NCBI GenBank assembly: GCA_024508855.1
Contig: JANINJ010000026.1
Coordinates: 62,001-126,000 of the forward strand
Direction: 5' to 3'
Length of the DNA: 64,000 nt
Origin: Xanthobacteraceae bacterium
GTDB taxonomy: Bacteria > Pseudomonadota > Alphaproteobacteria > Rhizobiales > Xanthobacteraceae
Under the pieces are notes generated by a model. It had not been told where the DNA came from and made no database searches. It saw only the letters and a list, made by a program, of their open reading frames with translations. The translations under genes and the position numbers were made by a program. Of this stretch, positions 1-12,015 are shown in pieces. Numbering within the stretch: position 1 is the first letter of the stretch; each line of letters begins with the position of its first letter.

Positions 1-1059
1 TTTTGTCTAACGCGCCCTGCGGCCGGCACAATCGACGTTGACGCTCCCGCGAGCCAGGCAGTCATGCGATCGGAGCTTGCGACCAAACTGCCGCCCGGGC
101 CGTGGTTGATTTTTGGGCGGCGGCGACAAGGACCCAAGATTAGGCCGAGGATTGTCCCGTCGGAAGGAAGGAGGTCAACGGCTGAGGCTGAGAGTACGGC
201 CTTGGAGCGAGCGATCGAGATTGAGGCATCTGGTGTACGTCTGAACGCGCTTTTGCACGCGTATTCGAAGCCCGATCAGCTTTCCATGCGCGAGCTTCGA
301 ATGATCATGGATCTTCTCGTGCTCTCACGGAAGGAGGGGCTGCCGATTTCCTCCGTTGACGCATTGAGGTTACTCGGGCGTTGCCCCCCTCTCGCCGTCT
401 CGCTGCTCGCCTCTTGCGAGTCGCTGGCAGAACGCGCCGCGCTGCTCGATCTGCAGCGGGAGCTGCCCTTTTTGTGGTGCTCCACCTCCGTTGGGGATTG
501 GCTCGAAGCGTTTTCGCTTCGCCTGAAGCAGATAGGCGAGAAGCTCGCTGCTGTCGGAATCGAGAGCGCAGCTGGGATTAGAAGCATAAGTGGTGCCCTT
601 GATGATATCGTCAATCTGAGGCCCGAGTTGTCGGCACATGCAAAATTCGTCTTTCTTGTTTGTGTCGCTGCGGAAATGGCCAAACATAGAAAGACGATTG
701 ATGGAACAACGCTCAATTTTCGTCAGTCCCCTCGTCGCGATGGGATTCGGCGGGAAGTGGATCGACTGATCGGCCGGCATGATGACGATACATTGCCTCC
801 GCAAAGCATATTCAGCTCGAAAACCCTGCTCTCTAGGCGACCGTACTTCGAGCCTTACAACTCGAATTTTTCCGAGGTTATCGCGGCGCCGCTGCTCGTC
901 GCCGATCATGCGAGCGGAAGAGTTAGGCTTGAGCAAGACGAACTACGGCGTAGTCGTGACGCGTGGCTGTACGATCCTGAGTATTTCGAAACGGTCTTTC
1001 CAATGGGGCTAGACGAAGCGCTTCGCAGCTCTGCGAGCGCTGAGAAGGTGCGGGCATGA
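1..1059 (+). CDS. C-terminal part of an unknown defence-island protein, cut by the left edge (possibly DruH/DruG-like)
   Basis: The frame is open from base 1 to the TGA at 1059, so the visible 352 codons are probably the C-terminal part of a longer protein; the first ATG at 64 has no convincing ribosome binding site and would give 331 residues. It is largely helical, with no catalytic motif I can name. Segments such as PPGPWLIFGR near the visible start and DPEYFETVFP near the end remind me of the STY4851/ECs_5259 family, which accompanies very large DUF1998 helicases; this is recollection, not a search. The stop overlaps the helicase start by four bases (ATGA), so the two are translationally coupled and likely work together. 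An alternative is that it is a complete 331-residue accessory protein. Confidence 0.6.
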   Translation, partial: FCLTRPAAGTIDVDAPASQAVMRSELATKLPPGPWLIFGRRRQGPKIRPRIVPSEGRRSTAEAESTALERAIEIEASGVRLNALLHAYSKPDQLSMRELRMIMDLLVLSRKEGLPISSVDALRLLGRCPPLAVSLLASCESLAERAALLDLQRELPFLWCSTSVGDWLEAFSLRLKQIGEKLAAVGIESAAGIRSISGALDDIVNLRPELSAHAKFVFLVCVAAEMAKHRKTIDGTTLNFRQSPRRDGIRREVDRLIGRHDDDTLPPQSIFSSKTLLSRRPYFEPYNSNFSEVIAAPLLVADHASGRVRLEQDELRRSRDAWLYDPEYFETVFPMGLDEALRSSASAEKVRA

Positions 1060-4000
1060 TTGATCTCGATCGCATGATGACGCGGTTGCCGGAGCAGGCA
1101 GCTGACGCCATCATCGGAATGTTGCGTCCACGCTCTCGCACCCTGGCGAGTTACCTGCGTAGCGTTTGGGGGGCGTCGGCCGGTAGCCCCGGCTCCCTGA
1201 TTGCCGAGCCGTTCGTGGAAGGTGCTTTCCCCTGGCTACCATTGAAGGGAGGATGGTCCGGACTTGACCAAGGGTTATTCGATCGTCGAACGATCGACGT
1301 GCTCAATTCGGTATCGTATCCGCCATATGCTCACCAGGCGGACGCTTGGAAACGCCTGACGTCCGCCGATCCACGCTCGGTGATTGTGTCCAGCGGCACG
1401 GGTTCGGGTAAGACCGAATGCTTTCTCGCGCCGATTCTCGATCGGCTCATTAGGTTGTCCGATGGGGGCCAAAGGCAGCTGGAGGGCGTGCGCGCTCTGT
1501 TGCTTTATCCGCTCAACGCGTTGATCAGCAGCCAGGAGGAGCGGCTGGAACGCTGGTTCGCACCCTTCGGAGGCAGCCTGCGGTATTGCCTCTACAATGG
1601 CGAAACGCCTGAAACGGCCCGAGCTTCTGTGAGAGCCGAGCGGCCGTGGCGTGTTGGCGACCGCACCGCGCTACGCGCCTCACCGCCACCAGTGCTCGTG
1701 ACAAATGCCACGATGCTGGAATACATGCTGATCCGTCAAGTTGATGCGCCGATCCCGGCGCTGTCTCGGGGCACGCTGGACTTCATCGTTCTCGACGAGG
1801 CTCACTCGTACATGGGAGCGCAAGCTGCGGAGATTGCGCTTCTTCTGCGCCGCGTTGCGCTCGCATTTGGCCGAACGCCCGATCAGATTCGCTATGTGGC
1901 GACCTCCGCCACCATAGGCGGAGCCAATGCGAGGGCAGAGCTCCATGATTTTCTCTGCAATCTCTCTGGCGCGCCACGTGACGCCGTGGACGTTGTTGAA
2001 GGTTATCGCGCGCCCCTACCGCTGATGCCGACCTCTCAAGAGGGTGGTCAGATTCCGGTAAACGACCTCTCCGAGTTTGATCCGCTGGAGAGTGGTCGAA
2101 TACTGGCCGAATCGAAGAGATTGCGAGCCGTGCGAGAAGAGCTTCGGTCCGGCCAAATCTATTCCTGGCGTGCTTGGGCTCGCGAAACGGCGGCGCTCGG
2201 TGTTGGACAGAGCGATGCGACAAGGTTTCTCGTGGAAGCGGCCAGGGCGAGGGATCCCCAGGCCGACCCGGCGATGGCTGCCATCGGCGGAGATTCCATT
2301 CTACCAAACCGAGTTCACCTATTTCATCGGACGGTGAATGGGCTCTGGACGTGCATAAATCCCAACTGCTCAAAGAGTCCTGCACAGGGAGCGGACGGCT
2401 CTGATTGGAACTACGGAGCGATTTTCTCGGAGGCTCGCGAACATTGTCTGTATTGCGGGTCAATTGTGTTGGAGTGGGTCTGTTGCCAGCTGTGTGGCGA
2501 CGGAGCGTTGAGAGCCGAGGAGCTTGATGGTGGCTCCCGAATTGCTGCATGGAGCGAAGGTGACGATGAGGATGAGTTCGAGCAGACGCTCGAGCGAGAG
2601 GACCCAAGTGAAGATTCAGAGGACGATGATGGGGCAGCGATAGATGCCCCCGCGCTTATTTCACGCCGATATCTAACCTATCCCCCGAAACCTGGGTCAC
2701 GTCGACTGGATCTGGATTTGAAAACGGGAAGATTGGACGGGAATGCAAATGTAACGTTCGCTGCAAGTCGGGACATCCTGGAATGCGCGTGTTGCACGCG
2801 CGCGCCAAATCGGTTCGATCCAAGTCGCGGTGCAATGCGCCCGGTGGTAGCAGGTGCGCCATTCCTGATGGCTCAAATCACCCCAGGCTTTCTCGCAGAC
2901 TTGTCCCCGGAGCTCGATGCTTCCGAGCCACTTCCGTTCGATGGGCGTCGTCTCATCACGTTTACTGATGCCCGCCAGGGTACGGCGAGGCATGCGGCCA
3001 ACGTCCAGATCGCGTCTGAGCGGATGTTTGTACGATCATTCATCTATCAGTTCGTGCAAGAGGCCCCTCCGGTCAATCAACAAGAGCTCGAAGCGCTGAA
3101 CGCAAGAATCGCGCGGCTCAGGGAGTTTCCGAACGATCCAGAGTTCGCCCGATTGGCAGATGACTTCGAGCGCCAGCGATCGGCGATGCTTGATGGCGGT
3201 GCGAAGCGGTGGCGTGAACTGGTGCAAAGGCTAGCTGCGCACACCACGGTCAATACTTTCCTGAGAGACCTTTGGACCACAACTAATCGAGACGATCGCT
3301 TTCAAGATCCAGAGGTACTCGCAGAATTTCTGCTGTACCGAGAAGCGATGAGACGGCCAGTCCGTGCGAACTCCGCGGAGACGCTCGGATTATTCCGATT
3401 TGAACTACCTGGGATTGACCGCGCGGAGCCGCGAGTGCCTCCTGTGGCGCAGCGCATTGGTATGACCGATGAGGATTGGCGCGATCTACTTCGCCTCTTG
3501 GTCACGCACTTCTTGCGGACGAACGTCGCGCTCGACTTTCCACGATGGTGGTTGAGTTGGATAGACCGACGCCAGAGCCATATCGAGGTCAAACCGTGGA
3601 GCCCTGGGGAAAAATCAAGCCGATATGTGCGTCTTTGGCCAAACGCGCAGGGCCCGCGACTAACGCGCGTAGTACGGCTTCTGTTTCAGGCCCTGCAACT
3701 CGATCCTGACAGTCGCACTGACAAGGACAGCGTGGACGAAGTACTCACGGCTGCTTGGCGAGCACTCTTTCGTTTTTTGACTACCTCGGACAACGGATTC
3801 CGTTTGCGGCTGGGAGATCTCGCTGTTGCTCGAGTCGACAGGGCATTCTGGTGTCCAACAACGAGAAGGGTGCTGGACACGACCATTCGAGGACGAAGCC
3901 CCTATGACATCGACGGGGTTCACCCCGTCGCGACACCCATTACAATGCCACGCCTGCCATACTCTTGGCGTCGGGATTCGGTCGGGCAGATCGTGACCGA

Positions 4001-7000
4001 AGACCGGATCGACAACTGGCTGGCACTTGATCCGACCGTTGTGTCGCTTCGAAGTCTTGGAAGATGGGGCGATCAACAGGACCGTGCGGCGAAATTCTCG
4101 CCTTGGATACGCGCGGCGGAACACTCCGCACAACAGCCGAGTACAGCACTCCGCCGGTATGAGAGAGAGTTCAAGGCCGGTAGGATCAATGTTCTTGGCT
4201 GTTCTACGACCATGGAAATGGGTGTCGATATCGGCAGCATCGAGGCGGTGCTGAATACGAATGCACCGCCAGAGATCGCGAATTATCGCCAGCGCGTTGG
4301 TCGGGCAGGGCGGCAGCGTCAGCCGATCGCAGTAGGACTTACGCTCTGCAAGAATCGTCCACTGGACCAAATGACGATTTCGAATCCAATGGAGTATCTC
4401 CAACGTCAGGTGCGAACGCCTCGGGTGAGTCTTGACAGCCCGACCATCGCAACGCGTCATGCCGCTGCACTTCTCTTGTCGGAGTACCTTTCAAGCCTTG
4501 GATCGGAATTGCATAAGCTGACCAATCAGGCATTTTTTGGTCTCGCGGCGGAGGCGAACGCACCGACTGATCCACCACCGGCCTCGGCCTTCATGGCTTG
4601 GCTCGATACCGTGCCTTCGACTCCGGCGCTGTTGGACGAGTTGACATCGTTGCTGGCCGGTACTCCCGTCCGGCCGGGTTGGGATCTCGTTGAAGTGCTG
4701 AGAGCTCGTATGGATCGGATCCACTCCGAGATTCAGGCTGAATGGCAGGCGCTGGCGCCTGCCACCCCAGGGGGCTTGGCTGGAGATGTCGAACTCGCGG
4801 CAATCAACAGGGCGCGAGAAGTTCAGAGACTTCGTTTGGAGAGAGGGTATCTACTAGGTGAGTTGGCCGGCAGAGGCTTTCTTCCATCCTATGGCTTCCC
4901 AACCGACGTCGTTCAATTCGTAACCGAGACAGCCAGCGAGAGAGCGGCACGAGCGCGCCGAGTTGAGGAGGGGGAGGCGCCGCAAGAGCAGAGCTTCGGT
5001 CGGGGTTATCCGTCGCGGTCACGCGAAGTGGGTATCTATGAATACGCGCCAGGCCGTGGGATCGTTGTAGATGGTGTTGTTCGCGAGTCTGGAGGCGTCA
5101 CTCTCAACTGGCAAAGGCCCATATCACAAGATGGCCTTCGCGAGATACAAAGCTTGAGAACGATGTGGTCCTGTAGAACCTGCGGCGCCCTGAGCTCGAA
5201 ACCGTCCGCCGTTGGTCAAACGCCCTGCATCGAGTGCGGATCGAGTAGCTTCACGCCGATCCGGTATCTAAGTCCTGGAGGGTTTTCGGTCGATGTTCGG
5301 TTTAAGGTGCACGATGATCCATCTGATCTCGGCGGTTCGAGGGTTATAGACCCGTGGGTTTCGGCGCGAGAGGCGCCGTGGCGCTCACTGCCAGACCCTG
5401 ACATCGGCCGCGTGCGTGCAAGCGCGGACGGAACGATTTTTTGGTTCAATCCGGGGGATCATGGACACGGGTATGCAGTCTGTCTTCATTGCGGCCGTTC
5501 TGAAGCCGAGACAGTGGCGTCTGGCGGGCCTGGCCTAACAGGCCACAGGCCGCTGAGAGGTGCGCCAATGGCGGCCGATGGTCAAACCTGTACTGGCGCT
5601 CCGGAATACTCGCCCTATGCGGTCGTACGAAATCTCAATTTGGGGCACGAAATACGGACGGACGTCTGCGAAATCCAGCTCTATGACTGTCGTTCGAGGG
5701 ACGTTGCGTTGACGATCGCTCTCGCGCTACGTGAAGCCGTAGCCAAGAAGCTGGGCATTGACGCCGACGAAATGGGCTTTGCGGCGCCAGCTGCGCCAAA
5801 TAACCGCGGCGCGGATTCTTATAGCGCGGTGATATTCGACAGGGCCAGCGGAGGAGCGGGTTTCTCGACCGTGATCGCGCGTGACCCTGTGGCTTATTTG
5901 AGGGAGGCGCTTACTTTCCTCGACTGCTCGGCAATAGGTCGATGTGGAGACCGAGATGCGGTGCGGGTTTGTCCGCGTTGCGTTCTCGCGCCGGATGCGC
6001 AGCACACAGTAGAAGGCACGGATCGCTTGAGTGCCTATGCGTTGCTGGCGCAGTTACTCTCGCGCATTTCACTTCCTGAGCAGCATCGCCTGTTTGGGGT
6101 GGAGACGGTGTACGAGTCGGCTGCCCTTGCGGACGCGCTGAACGATTTGATCTCAACAAACCCAGCGGCCGACCTAACGCTGATATTGCACGGTGACCCA
6201 AGTGCGTGGGACTTTGAACGATGGCCCGCCGCCTCCGTCGTAGAGCGGTGGGGTGCCCGTGGGCGCAGTGCGTCGGTCGAAGTGAACGGGGCGATCTTGC
6301 AGCAAGCGGATGCAGTTACTCGCCGGAGAGTTGTTCTTTGGCTCGAAAGGGCGAGAGCTTCACTCCGGAATATGTCTCCGGGCAACGAGGACTTCCTTGC
6401 GGTGGTCACCGAGGCCGGACGAGAAATCACCGCGTGGCGATCGCTTGATCGGTCGGCTTATTCCATCGACCTGAATTGGGCGAGCACCACAGAGGCTCCC
6501 GTCGTCCGAGGCAACCTGGAAGCGGCGCCCGAAAGCACGGGGAATATCGATCCTCACACGTTGCTTGTCGAAAGAATACGTGAAGCCATCTTCGAAGTCG
6601 GCGCTGAACTTGATGGGCCTGTGGACGGCTTTGGAAAGCGGCTCAAGGCTATCATCGCGGGGCGGAACGATACTCTCGCAGCCGTGCTCTCAGAGCCCTG
6701 CATCGAACTGCGGTACTCAGATCGGTATCTTTTCAGTCCTCTCGTAGTAAGGCTTGTTTCCGAGCTGTTGAGAGGCTTTTCCGATCAGAACACTGAGATC
6801 GTCGTAGACACTCTGCTGCAACGCCGTGACCAACGTCGCCCAAAGATGGGAACGACGGTCAAAGATGATTGGGCAGACATGGATTCTCGTACAGTTGTTT
6901 TTGAACATCTGCTCAAGGGGGTGTCCGCTACAGCAAGGCTGGGACTACACCAGGATCTCGCTCACCGTCGTCGGCTCAGTTTCCGTACCGCTCGAGGAGA

Positions 7001-7163
7001 AGGGACGATTTTCTTCGATCAGGGCGTCGGATCGTGGAGTCCCGTGGGGTCAGTTGCCTTCAATCCAATGGCCGCAATTGCGGACCAACTTCAGGCAGTT
7101 CAGGCACCATTTCTTGTTAAGAACGGAGGAAATGGCACATTTTTGGCGTGCAGGTTGGATTGA
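1056..7163 (+). CDS. giant DEAD/DEAH-box helicase with DUF1998/MZB domain (Druantia DruE-like)
   Basis: A 2035-residue superfamily 2 ATPase, presumably the nucleic-acid motor of an antiphage system. Visible motifs in order: Q-motif region YPPYAHQ (about 88-94), Walker A GTGSGKT (114-120), DEAH (247-250), TSAT (283-286), several CxxC metal-binding pairs (about 432-480 and 577-580), motif VI QRVGRAGR (about 1078-1086), a CxxC...CxxC knuckle (about 1371-1395), then the DUF1998/MZB signature DRASGGAGF (about 1591) with a following CxxC. About 380 further residues follow with no domain I recognise. DrmA and DrmB of DISARM are much shorter; DruE of Druantia has about this size and architecture, which is why I prefer it. 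The methylase and Vsr genes follow on the same strand. Base composition is visibly lower in G+C than the flanking core genes. Confidence 0.85.
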   Translation: MIDLDRMMTRLPEQAADAIIGMLRPRSRTLASYLRSVWGASAGSPGSLIAEPFVEGAFPWLPLKGGWSGLDQGLFDRRTIDVLNSVSYPPYAHQADAWKRLTSADPRSVIVSSGTGSGKTECFLAPILDRLIRLSDGGQRQLEGVRALLLYPLNALISSQEERLERWFAPFGGSLRYCLYNGETPETARASVRAERPWRVGDRTALRASPPPVLVTNATMLEYMLIRQVDAPIPALSRGTLDFIVLDEAHSYMGAQAAEIALLLRRVALAFGRTPDQIRYVATSATIGGANARAELHDFLCNLSGAPRDAVDVVEGYRAPLPLMPTSQEGGQIPVNDLSEFDPLESGRILAESKRLRAVREELRSGQIYSWRAWARETAALGVGQSDATRFLVEAARARDPQADPAMAAIGGDSILPNRVHLFHRTVNGLWTCINPNCSKSPAQGADGSDWNYGAIFSEAREHCLYCGSIVLEWVCCQLCGDGALRAEELDGGSRIAAWSEGDDEDEFEQTLEREDPSEDSEDDDGAAIDAPALISRRYLTYPPKPGSRRLDLDLKTGRLDGNANVTFAASRDILECACCTRAPNRFDPSRGAMRPVVAGAPFLMAQITPGFLADLSPELDASEPLPFDGRRLITFTDARQGTARHAANVQIASERMFVRSFIYQFVQEAPPVNQQELEALNARIARLREFPNDPEFARLADDFERQRSAMLDGGAKRWRELVQRLAAHTTVNTFLRDLWTTTNRDDRFQDPEVLAEFLLYREAMRRPVRANSAETLGLFRFELPGIDRAEPRVPPVAQRIGMTDEDWRDLLRLLVTHFLRTNVALDFPRWWLSWIDRRQSHIEVKPWSPGEKSSRYVRLWPNAQGPRLTRVVRLLFQALQLDPDSRTDKDSVDEVLTAAWRALFRFLTTSDNGFRLRLGDLAVARVDRAFWCPTTRRVLDTTIRGRSPYDIDGVHPVATPITMPRLPYSWRRDSVGQIVTEDRIDNWLALDPTVVSLRSLGRWGDQQDRAAKFSPWIRAAEHSAQQPSTALRRYEREFKAGRINVLGCSTTMEMGVDIGSIEAVLNTNAPPEIANYRQRVGRAGRQRQPIAVGLTLCKNRPLDQMTISNPMEYLQRQVRTPRVSLDSPTIATRHAAALLLSEYLSSLGSELHKLTNQAFFGLAAEANAPTDPPPASAFMAWLDTVPSTPALLDELTSLLAGTPVRPGWDLVEVLRARMDRIHSEIQAEWQALAPATPGGLAGDVELAAINRAREVQRLRLERGYLLGELAGRGFLPSYGFPTDVVQFVTETASERAARARRVEEGEAPQEQSFGRGYPSRSREVGIYEYAPGRGIVVDGVVRESGGVTLNWQRPISQDGLREIQSLRTMWSCRTCGALSSKPSAVGQTPCIECGSSSFTPIRYLSPGGFSVDVRFKVHDDPSDLGGSRVIDPWVSAREAPWRSLPDPDIGRVRASADGTIFWFNPGDHGHGYAVCLHCGRSEAETVASGGPGLTGHRPLRGAPMAADGQTCTGAPEYSPYAVVRNLNLGHEIRTDVCEIQLYDCRSRDVALTIALALREAVAKKLGIDADEMGFAAPAAPNNRGADSYSAVIFDRASGGAGFSTVIARDPVAYLREALTFLDCSAIGRCGDRDAVRVCPRCVLAPDAQHTVEGTDRLSAYALLAQLLSRISLPEQHRLFGVETVYESAALADALNDLISTNPAADLTLILHGDPSAWDFERWPAASVVERWGARGRSASVEVNGAILQQADAVTRRRVVLWLERARASLRNMSPGNEDFLAVVTEAGREITAWRSLDRSAYSIDLNWASTTEAPVVRGNLEAAPESTGNIDPHTLLVERIREAIFEVGAELDGPVDGFGKRLKAIIAGRNDTLAAVLSEPCIELRYSDRYLFSPLVVRLVSELLRGFSDQNTEIVVDTLLQRRDQRRPKMGTTVKDDWADMDSRTVVFEHLLKGVSATARLGLHQDLAHRRRLSFRTARGEGTIFFDQGVGSWSPVGSVAFNPMAAIADQLQAVQAPFLVKNGGNGTFLACRLD

Positions 7164-7238
7164 CGGATTGGGAACGAAATGAGAACAGTGTTAACCTGAC
7201 AAACGGGTGGTGCTCGATTCGCTGAGTTGGGGTTGGAA

Positions 7239-8402
7239 GTGAAGGTCGCGGGATTATTCGCCGGCGTTGGGGGATTGGAGCGGGGCCTTGCTGCGGCGGG
7301 GCATGAGCCGAGCCTGCTTTGCGAAATTTGGGAACCCGCTCGTGCCGTCCTCGCGGCGAGGATGCCTGACGTTCCCTGTAAGCGGGACGTTCGAGACCTC
7401 AAGACCCTGCCGAGGGAAGTCGACCTGATAGCAGGCGGATTTCCCTGCCAGGATCTTAGCCAGGCAGGCCAAACTCTGGGTATTGGAGGCTCTCGGTCTG
7501 GGCTAGTGGGTGAAATCTTCCGTCTGCTCGACCGACGGCGCGTGCCATGGGTCGTGCTTGAGAATGTTTCATTCATGTTGCAACTCGACAAGGGAAGCGG
7601 CATGCGCACCCTGGTCGAAGCATTTGAGGAGCGCGGCTATCGCTGGGCTTATCGCGTCGTGAATAGTCTCTCGTTCTTGCCACAACGGCGGGAGCGTGTG
7701 CTTTTCGTCGCGACTACGACTGATGTCGATCCTGCTTCGGTCATTCTGACGGACGAAGCTGAGCCAAATGTGCTCCCAACCAATCTCGATGCGTATGCTC
7801 ACGGCTTCTATTGGACCGAAGGAATACGTGGTCTCGGGTGGGCCCCCGATTCGATTCCTACATTGAAGAATGGCTCGACCGTTGGGATCGCTTCTCCACC
7901 CGCGATCTTACTGCCATCAGGGGATGTCATTACACCCGACATTCGGGATGCAGAGCGCCTTCAAGGGTTTCCGGAGAACTGGACCCGTCCGGCAGAACAG
8001 GTTTCTCGTGCTTCGCTTCGCTGGTCGCTCGCGGGGAACGCCGTCACAGTTCCGGTTGCAGCGTGGTTGGGCAAACGTCTAGCTCGACCCGGCAAGTATG
8101 ACGCCGATCGAGATGGCGCACTTCCTGCGAGTGGCAGGTGGCCAACAGCGGCACGCTATGACGGCAACGGCCGATATGCAGTTCGAATCAATTCCTATCC
8201 AAAATGGGAAGCGCGACCCGCCTTAACGCAGTTTCTCCGTCACGATGGAAAACCCCTTTCGGCGCGTGCTACGCGGGGATTTCTTTCGAGGACCGAGCGA
8301 GCAAAGCTGCGCTTTGCGGACGGCTTTCAAGATCGACTTCGCGAGCATCTCTTTCGGATGGACGCCCTTGAGAACCCGAAGTTCGCTGTTGCTGCCGAAT
8401 GA
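7239..8402 (+). CDS. dcm: DNA (cytosine-5) methyltransferase
   Basis: Transfers methyl from S-adenosylmethionine to C5 of cytosine in a short target, marking self DNA. All core motifs are visible: I FAGVGG (about 7-12), IV GGFPCQ with the catalytic Cys (about 65-71), VI ENV (about 107), VIII QRRERV (about 148), and IX/X ERLQGFPENW and GNAVTVP (about 240-270). About 110 residues follow motif X as a C-terminal extension. I chose the GTG at 7239, giving MKVAGLFAGVGG as in relatives; in-frame TTG codons at 7227 and 7233 are alternatives, and there is no ATG. The stop overlaps vsr by four bases. Recognition sequence cannot be read. The residue order argues for an active enzyme; whether it protects against the helicase module, the adjacent nuclease, or both is inference. 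Confidence 0.93.
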   Translation: MKVAGLFAGVGGLERGLAAAGHEPSLLCEIWEPARAVLAARMPDVPCKRDVRDLKTLPREVDLIAGGFPCQDLSQAGQTLGIGGSRSGLVGEIFRLLDRRRVPWVVLENVSFMLQLDKGSGMRTLVEAFEERGYRWAYRVVNSLSFLPQRRERVLFVATTTDVDPASVILTDEAEPNVLPTNLDAYAHGFYWTEGIRGLGWAPDSIPTLKNGSTVGIASPPAILLPSGDVITPDIRDAERLQGFPENWTRPAEQVSRASLRWSLAGNAVTVPVAAWLGKRLARPGKYDADRDGALPASGRWPTAARYDGNGRYAVRINSYPKWEARPALTQFLRHDGKPLSARATRGFLSRTERAKLRFADGFQDRLREHLFRMDALENPKFAVAAE

Positions 8403-8818
8403 AGGCGGCGCGCCCCGATGCCGAAACATCCGCACGAATGGCGCGGATCAGGCAAAAGGGTACAAAGATTGAGACGATCGTCTCGACCGTGCTGCGCGAT
8501 CTGGGGGTCCACTATCGCAAGAACGTAAAAAAGCTTCCCGGCAGTCCCGATTTTGCGAACCGCTCAAAACGCTGGGCTGTCTTCGTAAATGGGTGCTTCT
8601 GGCATCATCACAAGGGTTGCCTGAGAGCGACAATACCCAAGTCAAACCGGAATTTCTGGCTTGCCAAATTTCGTGACAATAGACGCAGAGACGCACGAAG
8701 CATAACACTTCTTAGGCGTGAAGGTTATCGCGTCATCATCATATGGGAGTGTGAAGAGAATCAAATCCGAGGCAAGCTAACTAAGATCCTTAAATCGCGT
8801 CGCGTAGATGCCGGATAG
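8399..8818 (+). CDS. vsr: very short patch repair endonuclease Vsr
   Basis: Nicks DNA 5' of the T in T:G mismatches that arise when 5-methylcytosine deaminates, and so protects methylase target sites from mutation. The 139-residue length is typical. The catalytic frame is intact: Glu25, the PD pair ending at Asp51, GCFWHHH (about 65-71) with the zinc-binding and active-site histidines, and the second Asp near 98; the C-terminal IIIWECEE matches the family. It starts inside the methylase stop (ATGA, 8399-8402), the usual dcm-vsr coupling. Its last 42 bases overlap, antisense, the 3' end of the convergent nuclease gene. Fairly A+T-rich: 8641-8700 has 29 G+C of 60. Confidence 0.93.
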   Translation: MKAARPDAETSARMARIRQKGTKIETIVSTVLRDLGVHYRKNVKKLPGSPDFANRSKRWAVFVNGCFWHHHKGCLRATIPKSNRNFWLAKFRDNRRRDARSITLLRREGYRVIIIWECEENQIRGKLTKILKSRRVDAG

Positions 8819-9619
8819 CCGAGCAATCATGTTTTCATAGTTGTATATGTCGCCTTTGGGCGGCGCCGGCGGTCCACTCACGAGCTTAACAGCACTCCCG
8901 TCGTTGGCCATATCTATGACGACGATCGAAATCGCATCATAGCCCACACCGCCTACCTTTGATCGACGCGGGAGTTGCTTGATTTTGTCGATCGCTAGCT
9001 GGGCGTCGCGCGGCTGTTTGTGCTTACTCCACTCTGGATCTGACAACTTGTTCTTCTTGTTCAAATCTGGACTAAGGTAATTCTCCGCGACATTCACCAT
9101 GGTATAGGCGACTGCGATTGCCTGATCACTCGCTCCGTGAACGGTGAGATGCGACGAGTTTAGTTCGTCGTACAGGCGAGGAAGTGCACGCTGATGCGCG
9201 GTCATGCAAGCTTTGGCCTCAAGCGCCATGATTACCGACCCGACAGGGGCACGAACGAGTTGCGGAAGCTTGTCAAAGACGATCCGCTCTTCGTCGGTCA
9301 GTTCGATTTGGTAGCTTCTTCCCATACTTGCCAAGGTCTCAGTCGTGGTCGCACCGCCCGGCGTGCAGAGTACGAGGTCAAGATTCTTCTTCCGGTCGTG
9401 AACGAAGTCTCTCATTTCATGATTGATGCCGAAGCAAACTGCGCCGACCTCTACGTGACGCCTCAAGAGCGGGGTAGAGGCCATCAAATCAAAAATCACT
9501 CCCCAGCAGGCAATTTTCGAGTGATGATCACTCCGCGAGTGATACTGCCAGTCGTTGCGATAGCGGTCTCGAATGCTGGCCGACGATAGTGTTCGCGCCA
9601 ATATTGCAGGCCCATTCAT
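8777..9619 (-). CDS. probable PD-(D/E)XK restriction endonuclease
   Basis: A 280-residue protein not recognised by name. The stretch NLDLVLCTPGG (Asp about 81) followed by a beta strand and VIMALEAK (Glu134, Lys136) fits the D...ExK core of PD-(D/E)XK nucleases, although the spacing from D to ExK is long, and the helix after it (MTAHQRALPRLYDEL) is typical of the fold. Placement directly beside a cytosine methylase and Vsr strongly suggests the cognate restriction enzyme. I chose the ATG at 9619 because GAGG lies five bases before it; earlier starts (ATG 9670, GTG 9730) are possible but the GTG lies inside a 30-base palindrome. Its 3' end overlaps vsr on the other strand by 42 bases. Function is inference. 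Confidence 0.7.
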   Translation of the reverse strand: MNGPAILARTLSSASIRDRYRNDWQYHSRSDHHSKIACWGVIFDLMASTPLLRRHVEVGAVCFGINHEMRDFVHDRKKNLDLVLCTPGGATTTETLASMGRSYQIELTDEERIVFDKLPQLVRAPVGSVIMALEAKACMTAHQRALPRLYDELNSSHLTVHGASDQAIAVAYTMVNVAENYLSPDLNKKNKLSDPEWSKHKQPRDAQLAIDKIKQLPRRSKVGGVGYDAISIVVIDMANDGSAVKLVSGPPAPPKGDIYNYENMIARLSGIYATRFKDLS

Positions 9620-9710
9620 ACGTGCCTCAAAGTTTAGTCTTAATTTCTCGCTTTTAACTGATTCCCCCATGGGAAGCGGTCTTCCCGACGGATTCTCGCC
9701 AATAAAGCTC

Positions 9711-9740
9711 GCCGGGCGGGTTGAGCTCACCCCGCCCGGC
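9711..9740. repeat. 30-base near-perfect palindrome upstream of the nuclease gene
   Basis: GCCGGGCGGG at 9711-9720 pairs with CCCGCCCGGC at 9731-9740, and the ten bases between contain the palindrome GAGCTC, so the whole 30 bases are self-complementary but for one mismatched pair. It lies about 90 bases upstream of the chosen nuclease start on the minus strand. It could be an operator for control of the restriction gene or a hairpin terminator isolating it; no T-run follows on either strand, which weakens the terminator reading. Confidence 0.6.
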
Positions 9741-10323: not shown

Positions 10324-10683
10324 ATGCTCGACGAGATTCAAGCGTTCATCGATCGGCTCCGCGATCAGAAGCCGCCGCCCGTAAAGGACATCTCGGCGAC
10401 CTGGCCGGAGATGGATAAGCGGCTTCGAGAAGATCAGGCCAAGGCCCACCAAGGAATGCTCGACGCGGCCGACGGGATCGAGGAGCACTTACGCAGGCTT
10501 TACGAACAGGGCGCAGACAGCCCTGACGCAATCGATATACTCGATCAAGTCGTCGCCATTTATTCGGCGACAAGATCTGACCGATTCATTGCGGGTTCGG
10601 GAATTGGCGATCCTTTTCGGGCAAGGGCACAGGCTCCGATGAAGATCATGCCTTGCGTGGTTCGTGCGCGACGAAGGCGCTGA
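10324..10683 (+). CDS. small protein of unknown function
   Basis: 119 residues, not recognised. A textbook ribosome binding site (GGAGG, four bases before the ATG) supports it as a real gene and decides the start over the upstream in-frame ATG at 10279. The first 80 residues are charged and helical (MLDEIQAFIDRLRDQ..., then an amphipathic stretch ending in AIDILDQVVAIYSATRSD); the tail is basic (RARRRR). The last 38 bases overlap antisense with the 3' end of the convergent HTH-like gene. A stable hairpin lies directly upstream. Its place in the island suggests an accessory or regulatory role, but nothing in the sequence shows it. Confidence 0.6.
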   Translation: MLDEIQAFIDRLRDQKPPPVKDISATWPEMDKRLREDQAKAHQGMLDAADGIEEHLRRLYEQGADSPDAIDILDQVVAIYSATRSDRFIAGSGIGDPFRARAQAPMKIMPCVVRARRRR

Positions 10684-11314
10684 GCGATCGACCGACTTGC
10701 GGGGTATCGTTGGAAAGCTCGTAGTCGCCGCGGAGTTCGTTCGCGATGCCCTCCACCACCTGCTGGGTGCCCACGGCGCGCTCCGGCGTGGTGTATACTG
10801 TGGGGTGCCATCCGTAAACGGGATCCCGGTGCACGCCGATGCGTACTCCGACAACGCCAAGTCTCGCGAGGATCATCTCTTCGATTTCCGCCGCAGTCGC
10901 TTGCTGTTTCTGGTGGGGCTTCAGGATCATCCGGCCTTCGGCGTCCACATCTTTCGACGGAAGCCATTCTGCCGATCCCGGGATGATCGTGCCGCCGATC
11001 AAGGCGATTCGATCGGCTGTGCTCTTTCCCCTGGGTTGGACCATATCGCCGGCCCGATGGTCCCATACCTTGAACCCGTGGACCTCCACCAATTCAGCGG
11101 CGTGATTGACCGCAGCGACCAGCATCCCGAACGACCTCTGGTAGACTTCGAGCTTTGCGCCGAGGTCCTTCCAAACCCCCTTGGGCACGTTCTCGGTGCC
11201 GGCCAGCCAGCGGCGCAAGCTCCGCTCGTTGACACGCAAGTCGCGAGCCAATGGAGCTTGCCACTCTTCACCGTAAAAAAACTCGCCAACATTTCGAAGA
11301 ATGTCTTGGTGCAT
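10646..11314 (-). CDS. hypothetical protein with N-terminal HTH-like segment
   Basis: 222 residues. The start is fixed by AGGAGG seven bases before the ATG at 11314; upstream in-frame codons are not needed. Residues about 20-42 (PLARDLRVNERSLRRWLAG) look like a helix-turn-helix of the kind that reads DNA, followed by PKGVWKDLG. The middle (about 85-130) contains VWDHRAGDMV and a DRIALIGGTIIPGS segment; the C-terminal half carries an AEIEEMILARLGVVGVRI helix-strand unit. I do not recognise the family. It may be a regulator of the neighbouring defence genes. The 3' end overlaps the small gene at 10324-10683 by 38 bases. Confidence 0.65.
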   Translation of the reverse strand: MHQDILRNVGEFFYGEEWQAPLARDLRVNERSLRRWLAGTENVPKGVWKDLGAKLEVYQRSFGMLVAAVNHAAELVEVHGFKVWDHRAGDMVQPRGKSTADRIALIGGTIIPGSAEWLPSKDVDAEGRMILKPHQKQQATAAEIEEMILARLGVVGVRIGVHRDPVYGWHPTVYTTPERAVGTQQVVEGIANELRGDYELSNDTPQVGRSLSAFVAHEPRKA

Positions 11315-11407
11315 AGTGGGCCTCCTGCCCAGTATCAGCGGCGGGGCCAATCCCCATCCGTGCACTTGAAAAGATAAGCGCGCGCGATCGGCGGCGCAAG
11401 GTCGCGG

Positions 11408-11860
11408 TCAACGAGGATTGACGACCCGGGTTATCTCAAAAAGGAGGTGATCCACGGTTTGGTCCGCGATCACCTCAGGATTGGGCACCGCCCCAGCAGC
11501 CCGCGACGGGTACCGCATGAAGTGGGTGCGGTGGAGTTCATTCAAAAAATCGATGTTCTCGGCAAGGGTCGAGTCGTGTTCAAGCCCGAGCCTGACAGCG
11601 GCTTCATACCAGCCAACCAGATCATGCTGCCTTGGTTCGTCGGGTATGGTCTTGCTGCTGGCCGAGTGGAAGACAAAGCCCTTCAGCGTCAACTCAATGG
11701 CATGGGTCACCAGCGCATATTTCGGCCAGTTCTGTTCTCCGCTTCGGGAGTCGGGCAATCGTATCGCCGCTTCCCGAAACTGACGTGCGCGGTTCAGATA
11801 TTGCTGCGCATCGCTACTGCCGGACGGCGGTGGGAATATCGGCGGCCTCATGCGTGTCAT
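11408..11860 (-). CDS. HEPN-like small protein
   Basis: 150 residues, last gene of the accessory block before the tRNA. The pattern AQQYLNRARQFREAAI (about 18-33), YALVTHAIELTLKGFVF (about 48-64), HDLVGWYEAAVRLGL (about 79-93) and a terminal RYP resembles HEPN-type four-helix proteins, which often bind nucleotides or cut RNA. The RNase signature Rx4-6H is not evident, so an RNase role is unproven. No good ribosome binding site precedes the ATG at 11860; a second ATG three codons later is possible. Solo HEPN proteins are common in defence islands and toxin-antitoxin pairs, but no partner nucleotidyltransferase is visible here. Confidence 0.5.
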   Translation of the reverse strand: MTRMRPPIFPPPSGSSDAQQYLNRARQFREAAIRLPDSRSGEQNWPKYALVTHAIELTLKGFVFHSASSKTIPDEPRQHDLVGWYEAAVRLGLEHDSTLAENIDFLNELHRTHFMRYPSRAAGAVPNPEVIADQTVDHLLFEITRVVNPR

Positions 11861-11939: not shown

Positions 11940-12015
11940 TGGTGAGCGCGGAGGGACTCGAACCCTCGACCCCATGATTAAAAGTCACGTGCTCTACCAC
12001 CTGAGCTACGCGCTC
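11940..12015 (-). tRNA. tRNA-Lys (anticodon UUU)
   Basis: On the minus strand the 76 bases fold as a full cloverleaf: acceptor GAGCGCG pairs with CGCGCTC, the anticodon stem CGTGA/TCATG encloses CTTTTAA with anticodon TTT, the T arm GAGGG-TTCGAGT-CCCTC is standard, and the 3' CCA is encoded (11940-11942). Its 3' end faces the lower-G+C defence island, the usual geometry for integrase-mediated insertion into tRNA genes. I saw no second copy of its 3' end inside the window, so the other attachment site, if any, lies beyond the left edge. Confidence 0.97.

Follow-up and report, generated by a model that had tools for sequence, protein, structure and literature searches.

A 64,000-nucleotide stretch of a Xanthobacteraceae bacterium genome (assembly GCA_024508855.1, contig JANINJ010000026.1, positions 62,001 to 126,000; G000:C26:62001-126000 in our numbering and also numbered within stretch L002), hereafter the window, opens within a Druantia type III defence locus, druH and druE, behind which lie genes for a C5-cytosine DNA methyltransferase (Dcm), a very short patch repair endonuclease (Vsr) and a probable restriction endonuclease (O317). 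In the window's branch the five genes druH-druE-dcm-vsr-O317 lie colinear in a single block of about 11.8 kb, and in the loci examined this branch of DruE was linked with a methylase/Vsr tail. The reading we consider probable is that of a complete Druantia III with a type II restriction-modification (RM) cassette docked behind druE, the two acting as a layered defence; we infer that Druantia III and cassette are functionally coupled. The features of the locus, in window positions, are as follows.

1-1059, plus strand: 3' portion of druH (1100 aa when complete, start 2243 bases before the window); PADLOC DruH3, NCBIfam YjiT_fam and PDB 9tud.
1056-7163, plus strand: druE, a 2035-aa YprA-family helicase with an MZB zinc domain; PADLOC DruE3, PDB 9tu7 and motifs.
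7227-8402, plus strand: dcm-type C5-cytosine DNA methyltransferase, 391 aa; PF00145, TIGR00675 and catalytic motifs.
8399-8818, plus strand: vsr, a 139-aa very short patch repair endonuclease; TIGR00632 and alignment with E. coli Vsr (1cw0).
8777-9730, minus strand: O317, probable restriction endonuclease of no named family, with a likely start at Met38 (8777-9619); neighbourhood and a D..E-A-K pattern.
1-9666 (window part), no strand: stretch common with Bradyrhizobium semiaridum, 91% nucleotide identity.

Apart from O317, the genes were identified by these matches. The window edge cuts druH, which as a whole spans L002:13757-17059 with a GTG start (G000:C26:59757) and is preceded on the opposite strand by an amidohydrolase-type frame. 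A preliminary description of the window had already named a DruE-sized helicase, a 5mC methylase and Vsr, which were confirmed at 1056-7163, 7227-8402 and 8399-8818, and its 2035-residue DUF1998 helicase was found to carry DEAD, Helicase_C and MZB (DUF1998-type) domains. The ATGA overlap by which it coupled the helicase to the gene upstream was also present, the druH frame ending at 1059 and druE starting at 1056, and vsr overlaps dcm in the same manner. The upstream protein that it called unknown does exist, but as a full-length gene it encodes the 1100-aa DruH. The operon is not fused to the Dcm-Vsr pair as had been written, since these are separate genes, with a gap of 63 nt from the end of druE to the TTG called as the start of dcm; where dcm truly starts is uncertain. 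Absent from that description was O317 (8777-9619/9730, minus strand), which is convergent with vsr and belongs with the cassette. No sigma-70-like promoter was found at window 6900-9000, and terminator-like matches in the same interval were near the shuffled level (3 versus 2.0).

Judged from its sequence, this is Druantia type III with both genes present, a DruE of the DruE3 family having DruH directly upstream. DruE matched PADLOC DruE3 (PDLC00037) with 1910 bits over residues 4-2016 of 2035, with lower scores for DruE1 (460 bits), DruE2 (319 bits), DpdJ (77 bits) and DrmA (44 bits), and it matched the solved DruE (PDB 9tu7) with 842 bits. Walker A was located at residue 116, DEAH at 247 and QRVGRAGR at 1079. 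The C-terminal region can be aligned with the PLD-type nuclease part of 9tu7 (1688-2083, 72 bits), and an H-x-R pair and DQGxG within this region were conserved across 18 aligned DruE rows. DruH scored 300.8 bits with NCBIfam YjiT_fam NF038336 (cut-off 150), 242 bits with PADLOC DruH3 over residues 20-1082 and 82 bits with the DruH structure (PDB 9tud). A 1776-aa frame was seen in the DruH position of another locus (L045:4651-9981), as against 1100 aa in the window, and gave 101 bits to the window DruH by phmmer. Chance was dismissed as the origin of the arrangement given profile scores up to 1910 bits and the recurrence of the five genes elsewhere as a colinear block.

The helicase operon was thus rightly called Druantia-like, with DruH adjoining a DruE3-type DruE, while the comparison drawn with Druantia type II was misplaced; type III had been missed because the window cuts druH. 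In the original definition of the Druantia types, type II has the gene order DruM-DruF-DruG-DruE. That the window holds a relative of type II with an altered gene order is scarcely credible: a cytosine methylase stands near druE in both, but the DruE3 score of 1910 bits exceeds the DruE2 score of 319 bits, druH precedes druE, and an amidohydrolase-type frame on the other strand precedes druH. Membership of Druantia II was therefore rejected, as was that of DISARM or ARMADA from the DrmA (44 bits) and DpdJ (77 bits) scores, and the helicase did not cluster with DISARM when checked by profile. No PglX-like methylase or BrxHII-like helicase was detected among the seven window proteins and DruH that were scanned.

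The tail behind druE carried the expected signatures of a methylase and its repair partner. Dcm matched PF00145 and, with 137 bits, the dcm model TIGR00675 (cut-off 100.65), and included the motifs PCQ (73), ENV (112), QRRER (153, QxRxR) and GN (270). Vsr scored 113 bits with TIGR00632 (cut-off 97.85) and aligned over residues 8-129 with E. coli Vsr 1cw0; the position matching E. coli His64 is Asn. Both Dcm and Vsr look intact. O317, whose homologues start at Met38, occurred in 8 of 397 genomes of the order, the window's own and seven others. All seven others had Dcm and Vsr matches in the same stretch (13.6-20 kb each) and no DruE match was found in those stretches. The window order dcm-vsr-O317 was kept in six of the seven DruE-less cassettes, the exception being L130 with Vsr beyond the far side of Dcm, and the Vsr frame was shortened in L129. 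More widely, dcm and vsr were both present in all 12 O317-homologue loci with surroundings examined, and a D..E-A-K pattern of the PD-(D/E)xK kind was present in all rows of the O317 alignment (12 rows, L129 left out). O317 had no usable match in PADLOC or Pfam and none to PDB sequences, and was not found in viral contigs. A weak match to TIGR04167 (19.8 bits, cut-off 300) was set aside as a basis for calling it a radical-SAM protein, and an archaeal homologue (H43) had 23% identity. O317 is probably the restriction endonuclease of the cassette, and because the Dcm-Vsr-O317 trio also stands without DruE in seven genomes, the tail is most simply read as a type II RM cassette. On a Rhizobium phaseoli plasmid (L123:10001-12891) the trio is kept and druE is reduced to a 3'-end relic. 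The window cassette shares with type II RM systems with Vsr (M-V-R) the C5 methylase, an overlapping vsr and a convergent third gene, and differs from them in being physically joined to druHE and shared together with it as one block; its endonuclease is putative.

The colinearity of Druantia genes and tail was apparent from pairwise comparisons. The window genome and B. semiaridum shared one block at 91% nucleotide identity, from window -2234 to 9666 (about 11.8-11.9 kb), limited by druH on one side and a point just past the O317 start on the other, and nothing else matched within the 26-31 kb compared, flanks included. For L036, L038 and L114, identity over the same span was about 68% to the window, with the L114 match in three pieces, and 71-77% to one another. 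All six pairs among L034, L036, L038 and L114 reached 2.4-2.5 kb beyond the druE stop. Between the shared block and a tRNA-Lys gene (11940-12015, minus strand) lie two minus-strand frames (10646-11365 and 11408-11860) without a Pfam, PADLOC or NCBIfam match. An att site at this tRNA-Lys was rejected, as none of the 12-mers in the tRNA region is repeated within C26:46001-77000 and the repeats that were found do not involve the tRNA.

A DruE search of the GTDB collection gave 79 loci, from the best 80 of 436 confirmed matches. Ten near loci (L034-L042 and L044, not L043) had a DruE 54-95% identical to that of the window and 69 distant loci were at 31-44%; a Sinorhizobium mexicanum plasmid (L114, 71%) served as the eleventh near locus and a viral contig (L113) as the seventieth distant one. 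All frames of 40 aa or more were searched by profile for Dcm and Vsr (E<1e-3). With DruE at 54% identity or more, all 11 near loci had Vsr at most 1.5 kb from druE and 10 of the 11 had Dcm, the exception being L042, whose contig ends 1249 bases past druE. Neither was found in any of the 70 distant loci, among them L113, the single DruE locus from the viral-contig search; a Vsr match in L092 (E 0.057, 13 bits) was discarded as chance. At least 3 kb lay 3' of druE in 51 of the 69 distant genome loci, the rest being shortened by contig ends that cut the downstream stretch, so that absence from these weighs less. Fisher tests (11/11 against 0/70; 4/4 against 0/51) assume independence, which these loci do not have.

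Two more Mesorhizobium genomes (G800, G803) had both Dcm and Vsr, and three further distant Mesorhizobium loci (L172-L174) had neither. In all seven near genomes searched whole, those of 7 of the 11 near loci, the sole match to the window Dcm at E<=1e-20 was the one beside druE, and the genome of L043 (DruE 41%) had no match to the window Dcm at this threshold. The window genome contains one Vsr, at this locus. An order-wide DruE search gave a next best score after the window of only 131 bits, with no second strong match, and a search of the window's own family added solely G591, which fits the genome of L037. The neighbourhoods of related loci thus did not lack Dcm-Vsr, and of the new Druantia variant proposed in the preliminary description the association stood; a subtype defined by Dcm-Vsr was not demonstrated, because the tail is best taken as a docked RM cassette that also lives without Druantia.

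The near loci were monophyletic in the DruE tree (23 rows, 10 near; support 100/100) and their tails fell into four arrangements, A to D. Arrangement A, with Dcm and Vsr codirectional and O317 convergent, comprised the window, L034, L036, L038 and L114. In arrangement B (L035, L037) Vsr and Dcm are convergent to druE, with an HNH-endonuclease-like gene (PADLOC HNH, 72 bits) between in L037. Arrangement C (L041) has Dcm and Vsr codirectional and then a gene (L041:18220-21012) for a TOTE-type primase-helicase that carries a DUF559 nuclease domain. The Dcms of the four arrangements were distantly related (42-47%). Compared with the window, L035 and L037 had DruE at 66-71%, Dcm at 45-47% and Vsr at 33-34% (71%, 45% and 33% for L037), whereas the Dcms of the DruE-less cassettes were at 64-72%. 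In the Dcm tree, which has weak deep support and some long branches, group A and L123 made a supported clade (98/99) nested in a larger group with the DruE-less cassettes, Bosea plasmids and L126, with B, C and D outside. The block shared by L036 and L037 stops at the druE stop codon, and all five A-versus-B pairs that reach this codon end there. Among distant pairs reaching it, 17 of 21 ended within 160 bases of the stop and four continued for at least 1 kb, three of these being identical or 94% identical stretches. Different tails therefore occupy the same place, with one swap at the druE stop.

Several observations weigh against a layered defence by Druantia III and an RM cassette. In arrangement D (the L039 group) Vsr is directly behind druE and Dcm follows at a distance of 3.8 kb, next to a GmrSD_N (DUF262) gene; L035 and L041 had methylase and Vsr with no restriction endonuclease recognised among the neighbours scanned. 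O317 is labelled an endonuclease from its D..EAK pattern and its neighbouring genes, without family or fold support, and an AlphaFold model from four sequences was unusable (pLDDT 36). Contig C6 of the window genome carries another C5 methylase. The near-identical Mesorhizobium copies make up 4 of the 11 near loci (6 of 13 with G800 and G803): L039, L040, L042, L044, G800 and G803 had near-equal DruE scores, and the four compared were 99% identical around druE, which leaves about eight distinct near loci with the window included. Defence genes cluster in islands, so linkage can arise without cooperation, and across 150 genomes of the order Vsr was within 5 kb of 44 of 100 C5-methylase loci. 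In the group of arrangement D, L039:18787-21666 was seen to hold, end-to-end with Dcm, the GmrSD_N (DUF262) gene together with a 261-aa frame.

The clustering of defence genes and the frequency of Vsr near C5 methylases bear directly on an account by mere neighbourhood, in which an RM cassette without functional link hitch-hikes in a defence island, at a spot behind druE that is prone to insertion, an account that we regard as possible and somewhat doubtful. Type I and IV RM systems are reported to be enriched near Druantia III (PMC13192584), and other kinds of methylase do occur behind druE in some distant loci. The latter were sampled as at most two genes per locus within 5 kb behind druE, of at least 150 aa and with those over 1200 aa dropped, and among the 96 proteins obtained the most frequent families were phage integrase (4), a type I methylase model (4) and N6_Mtase (3), the last two giving the hitch-hiking account its 3-4 of 96. 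The same sample speaks against it in that the genes were varied, with no family above 4 of 96. Hitch-hiking alone, moreover, yields neither 11/11 against 0/70 nor the replacement of one Dcm-Vsr pair by distantly related ones. In the 150 genomes, 44 of 53 Vsr also had a C5 methylase within 5 kb (PF00145 at E<=1e-20 with neighbouring pieces merged, PF03852 at E<=1e-8, the window itself counted); Vsr beside Dcm is thus ordinary, and the informative part is the methylase-Vsr unit beside this DruE.

That unit could also be integral to this branch of Druantia, the methylase marking self for DruHE, as DruM may in type II, with Vsr as repair partner or as a supplier of nicks for DruE loading and O317 as a passenger. 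The linkage itself (Vsr 11/11, Dcm 10/11) agrees with such a role, as do the exchange of the partner with its place kept, the Dcm-Vsr of L035 and L041 without a recognised restriction endonuclease, and the frequency of Vsr and C5 methylase, 14 of 16 each, in the DruE2-like loci described below. It is unlikely, however, given that the trio stands without Druantia in seven genomes, that the R. phaseoli trio persists with a druE relic, that none of 70 distant DruE loci has such a methylase, and that the M. smegmatis Druantia III is reported as two-component (PMC13316683).

DruE2-like loci, defined by at least 543 bits to the DruE2 of L126 (PADLOC DruE2 was scored directly for L126 and two others), numbered sixteen: five in the order sample, two in a 398-genome phylum sample and nine on plasmids (9 of 11 records found, the partial cyanobacterial matches H63 and H64 being left out). 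Fourteen of the 16 had Vsr no more than about 8 kb from druE (L126, L136, L145, L146, L148, L177 and L179-L186), 13 of them by profile and L179 by annotation at the stretch edge, and Vsr was not found in the stretch fetched for L147 and L178. Excluding L126, which had been reached via Dcm, the count was 13 of 15. The distance from druE to Vsr was at most 1.5 kb in nine of the 14 and about 3-8 kb in L179, L180, L181, L185 and L186. A C5 methylase was found in all but L145 and L178. Among the DruE-like loci of the order sample, eleven others had neither Vsr nor methylase in the stretch fetched; for one of them, G068, a methylase-Vsr pair lies about 16 kb away, beyond the stretch. On a Burkholderia multivorans plasmid (L126:3906-11830) DruE2 is followed by a methylase of the window's PADLOC family PDLC03324 and a convergent Vsr. 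A PD-(D/E)xK (PF12705) gene was seen between druE and vsr in L136 and L148, and beside the DruE2-like gene of L181 (13938-16764) was a trio similar to that of L039, annotated DUF262, HEPN-like nuclease and cytosine methylase.

Taken together with the near clade, these loci raise the idea, unlikely in our estimation, that a 5mC methylase and Vsr constitute a recurrent functional Druantia module, general with DruE2-type systems and repeatedly acquired by one type III branch, in which the methylase would mark self and Vsr would protect the marked genome and feed nicked DNA to DruE. If this were true, the window would be a Druantia III subtype with an accessory slot behind druE that takes interchangeable methylase-Vsr pairs, sometimes with an endonuclease.

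Under the reading preferred here, of Druantia III with a docked RM cassette, the methylase would mark the cassette's site in the host genome, O317 would cut incoming unmarked DNA and Vsr would mend in the host the T:G mismatches that come from 5mC deamination. DruH would sense a phage component and license DruE, which may be favoured by ends arising from restriction and RecBCD/AddAB-type processing and would degrade DNA under processing or replication. The two layers would then be sequential, cutting first and degrading next, and this would account for a pairing that persists although the partner enzyme changes.

The published parts of this scheme are recent and come from a 2026 preprint on the Druantia III mechanism (PMC13192584). 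There E. coli DruE is described as a helicase-nuclease dimer; it loads on 3'-tailed DNA and breaks down long DNA, probably at exposed single-stranded DNA. DruH is described as a likely sensor with dimer-dependent nuclease activity; Druantia III was sensitive to RecD loss, synergised with Zorya II via RecBCD and had neighbourhoods enriched in type I and IV RM systems. With the type III systems known from 9tu7, 9tud and M. smegmatis, where DruH-DruE is reported as a two-component Druantia III (PMC13316683), the window shares both genes, the helicase motifs, MZB and an alignable C-terminal region with H-x-R and DQGxG, and it adds the methylase/Vsr/O317 cassette behind druE, Dcm or Vsr being found in 0 of 70 distant DruE loci. 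With Druantia type II it has in common a cytosine methylase, and in 14 of 16 DruE2-like loci Vsr lies within 8 kb of druE; it differs in its DruE family, its DruH and a methylase behind rather than before druE. Druantia has been grouped among YprA-family systems, and a fused Vsr-type nuclease is reported on ARMADA helicases and some III-B helicases (PMC12458937). The YprA-type helicase is common to ARMADA, DISARM, Dpd and the window; in the window Vsr is encoded as a protein of its own and paired with a methylase. In the passages seen of the literature on Druantia with Vsr, DruH/DruE and type III neighbourhoods, we found neither a separate vsr-methylase pair reported next to Druantia nor a description of Vsr near DruE2-like loci.

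What is new here is a known system, Druantia III, with an unusual, clade-wide and exchangeable methylase-Vsr partner. The presence of Vsr near most of the DruE2-like loci examined is a second pattern and is directly testable. A branch in which every locus seen is accompanied by an exchangeable methylase-Vsr unit, and part of which moves with that unit as a block, may serve as a test bed for cooperation between RM systems and a helicase-nuclease defence.

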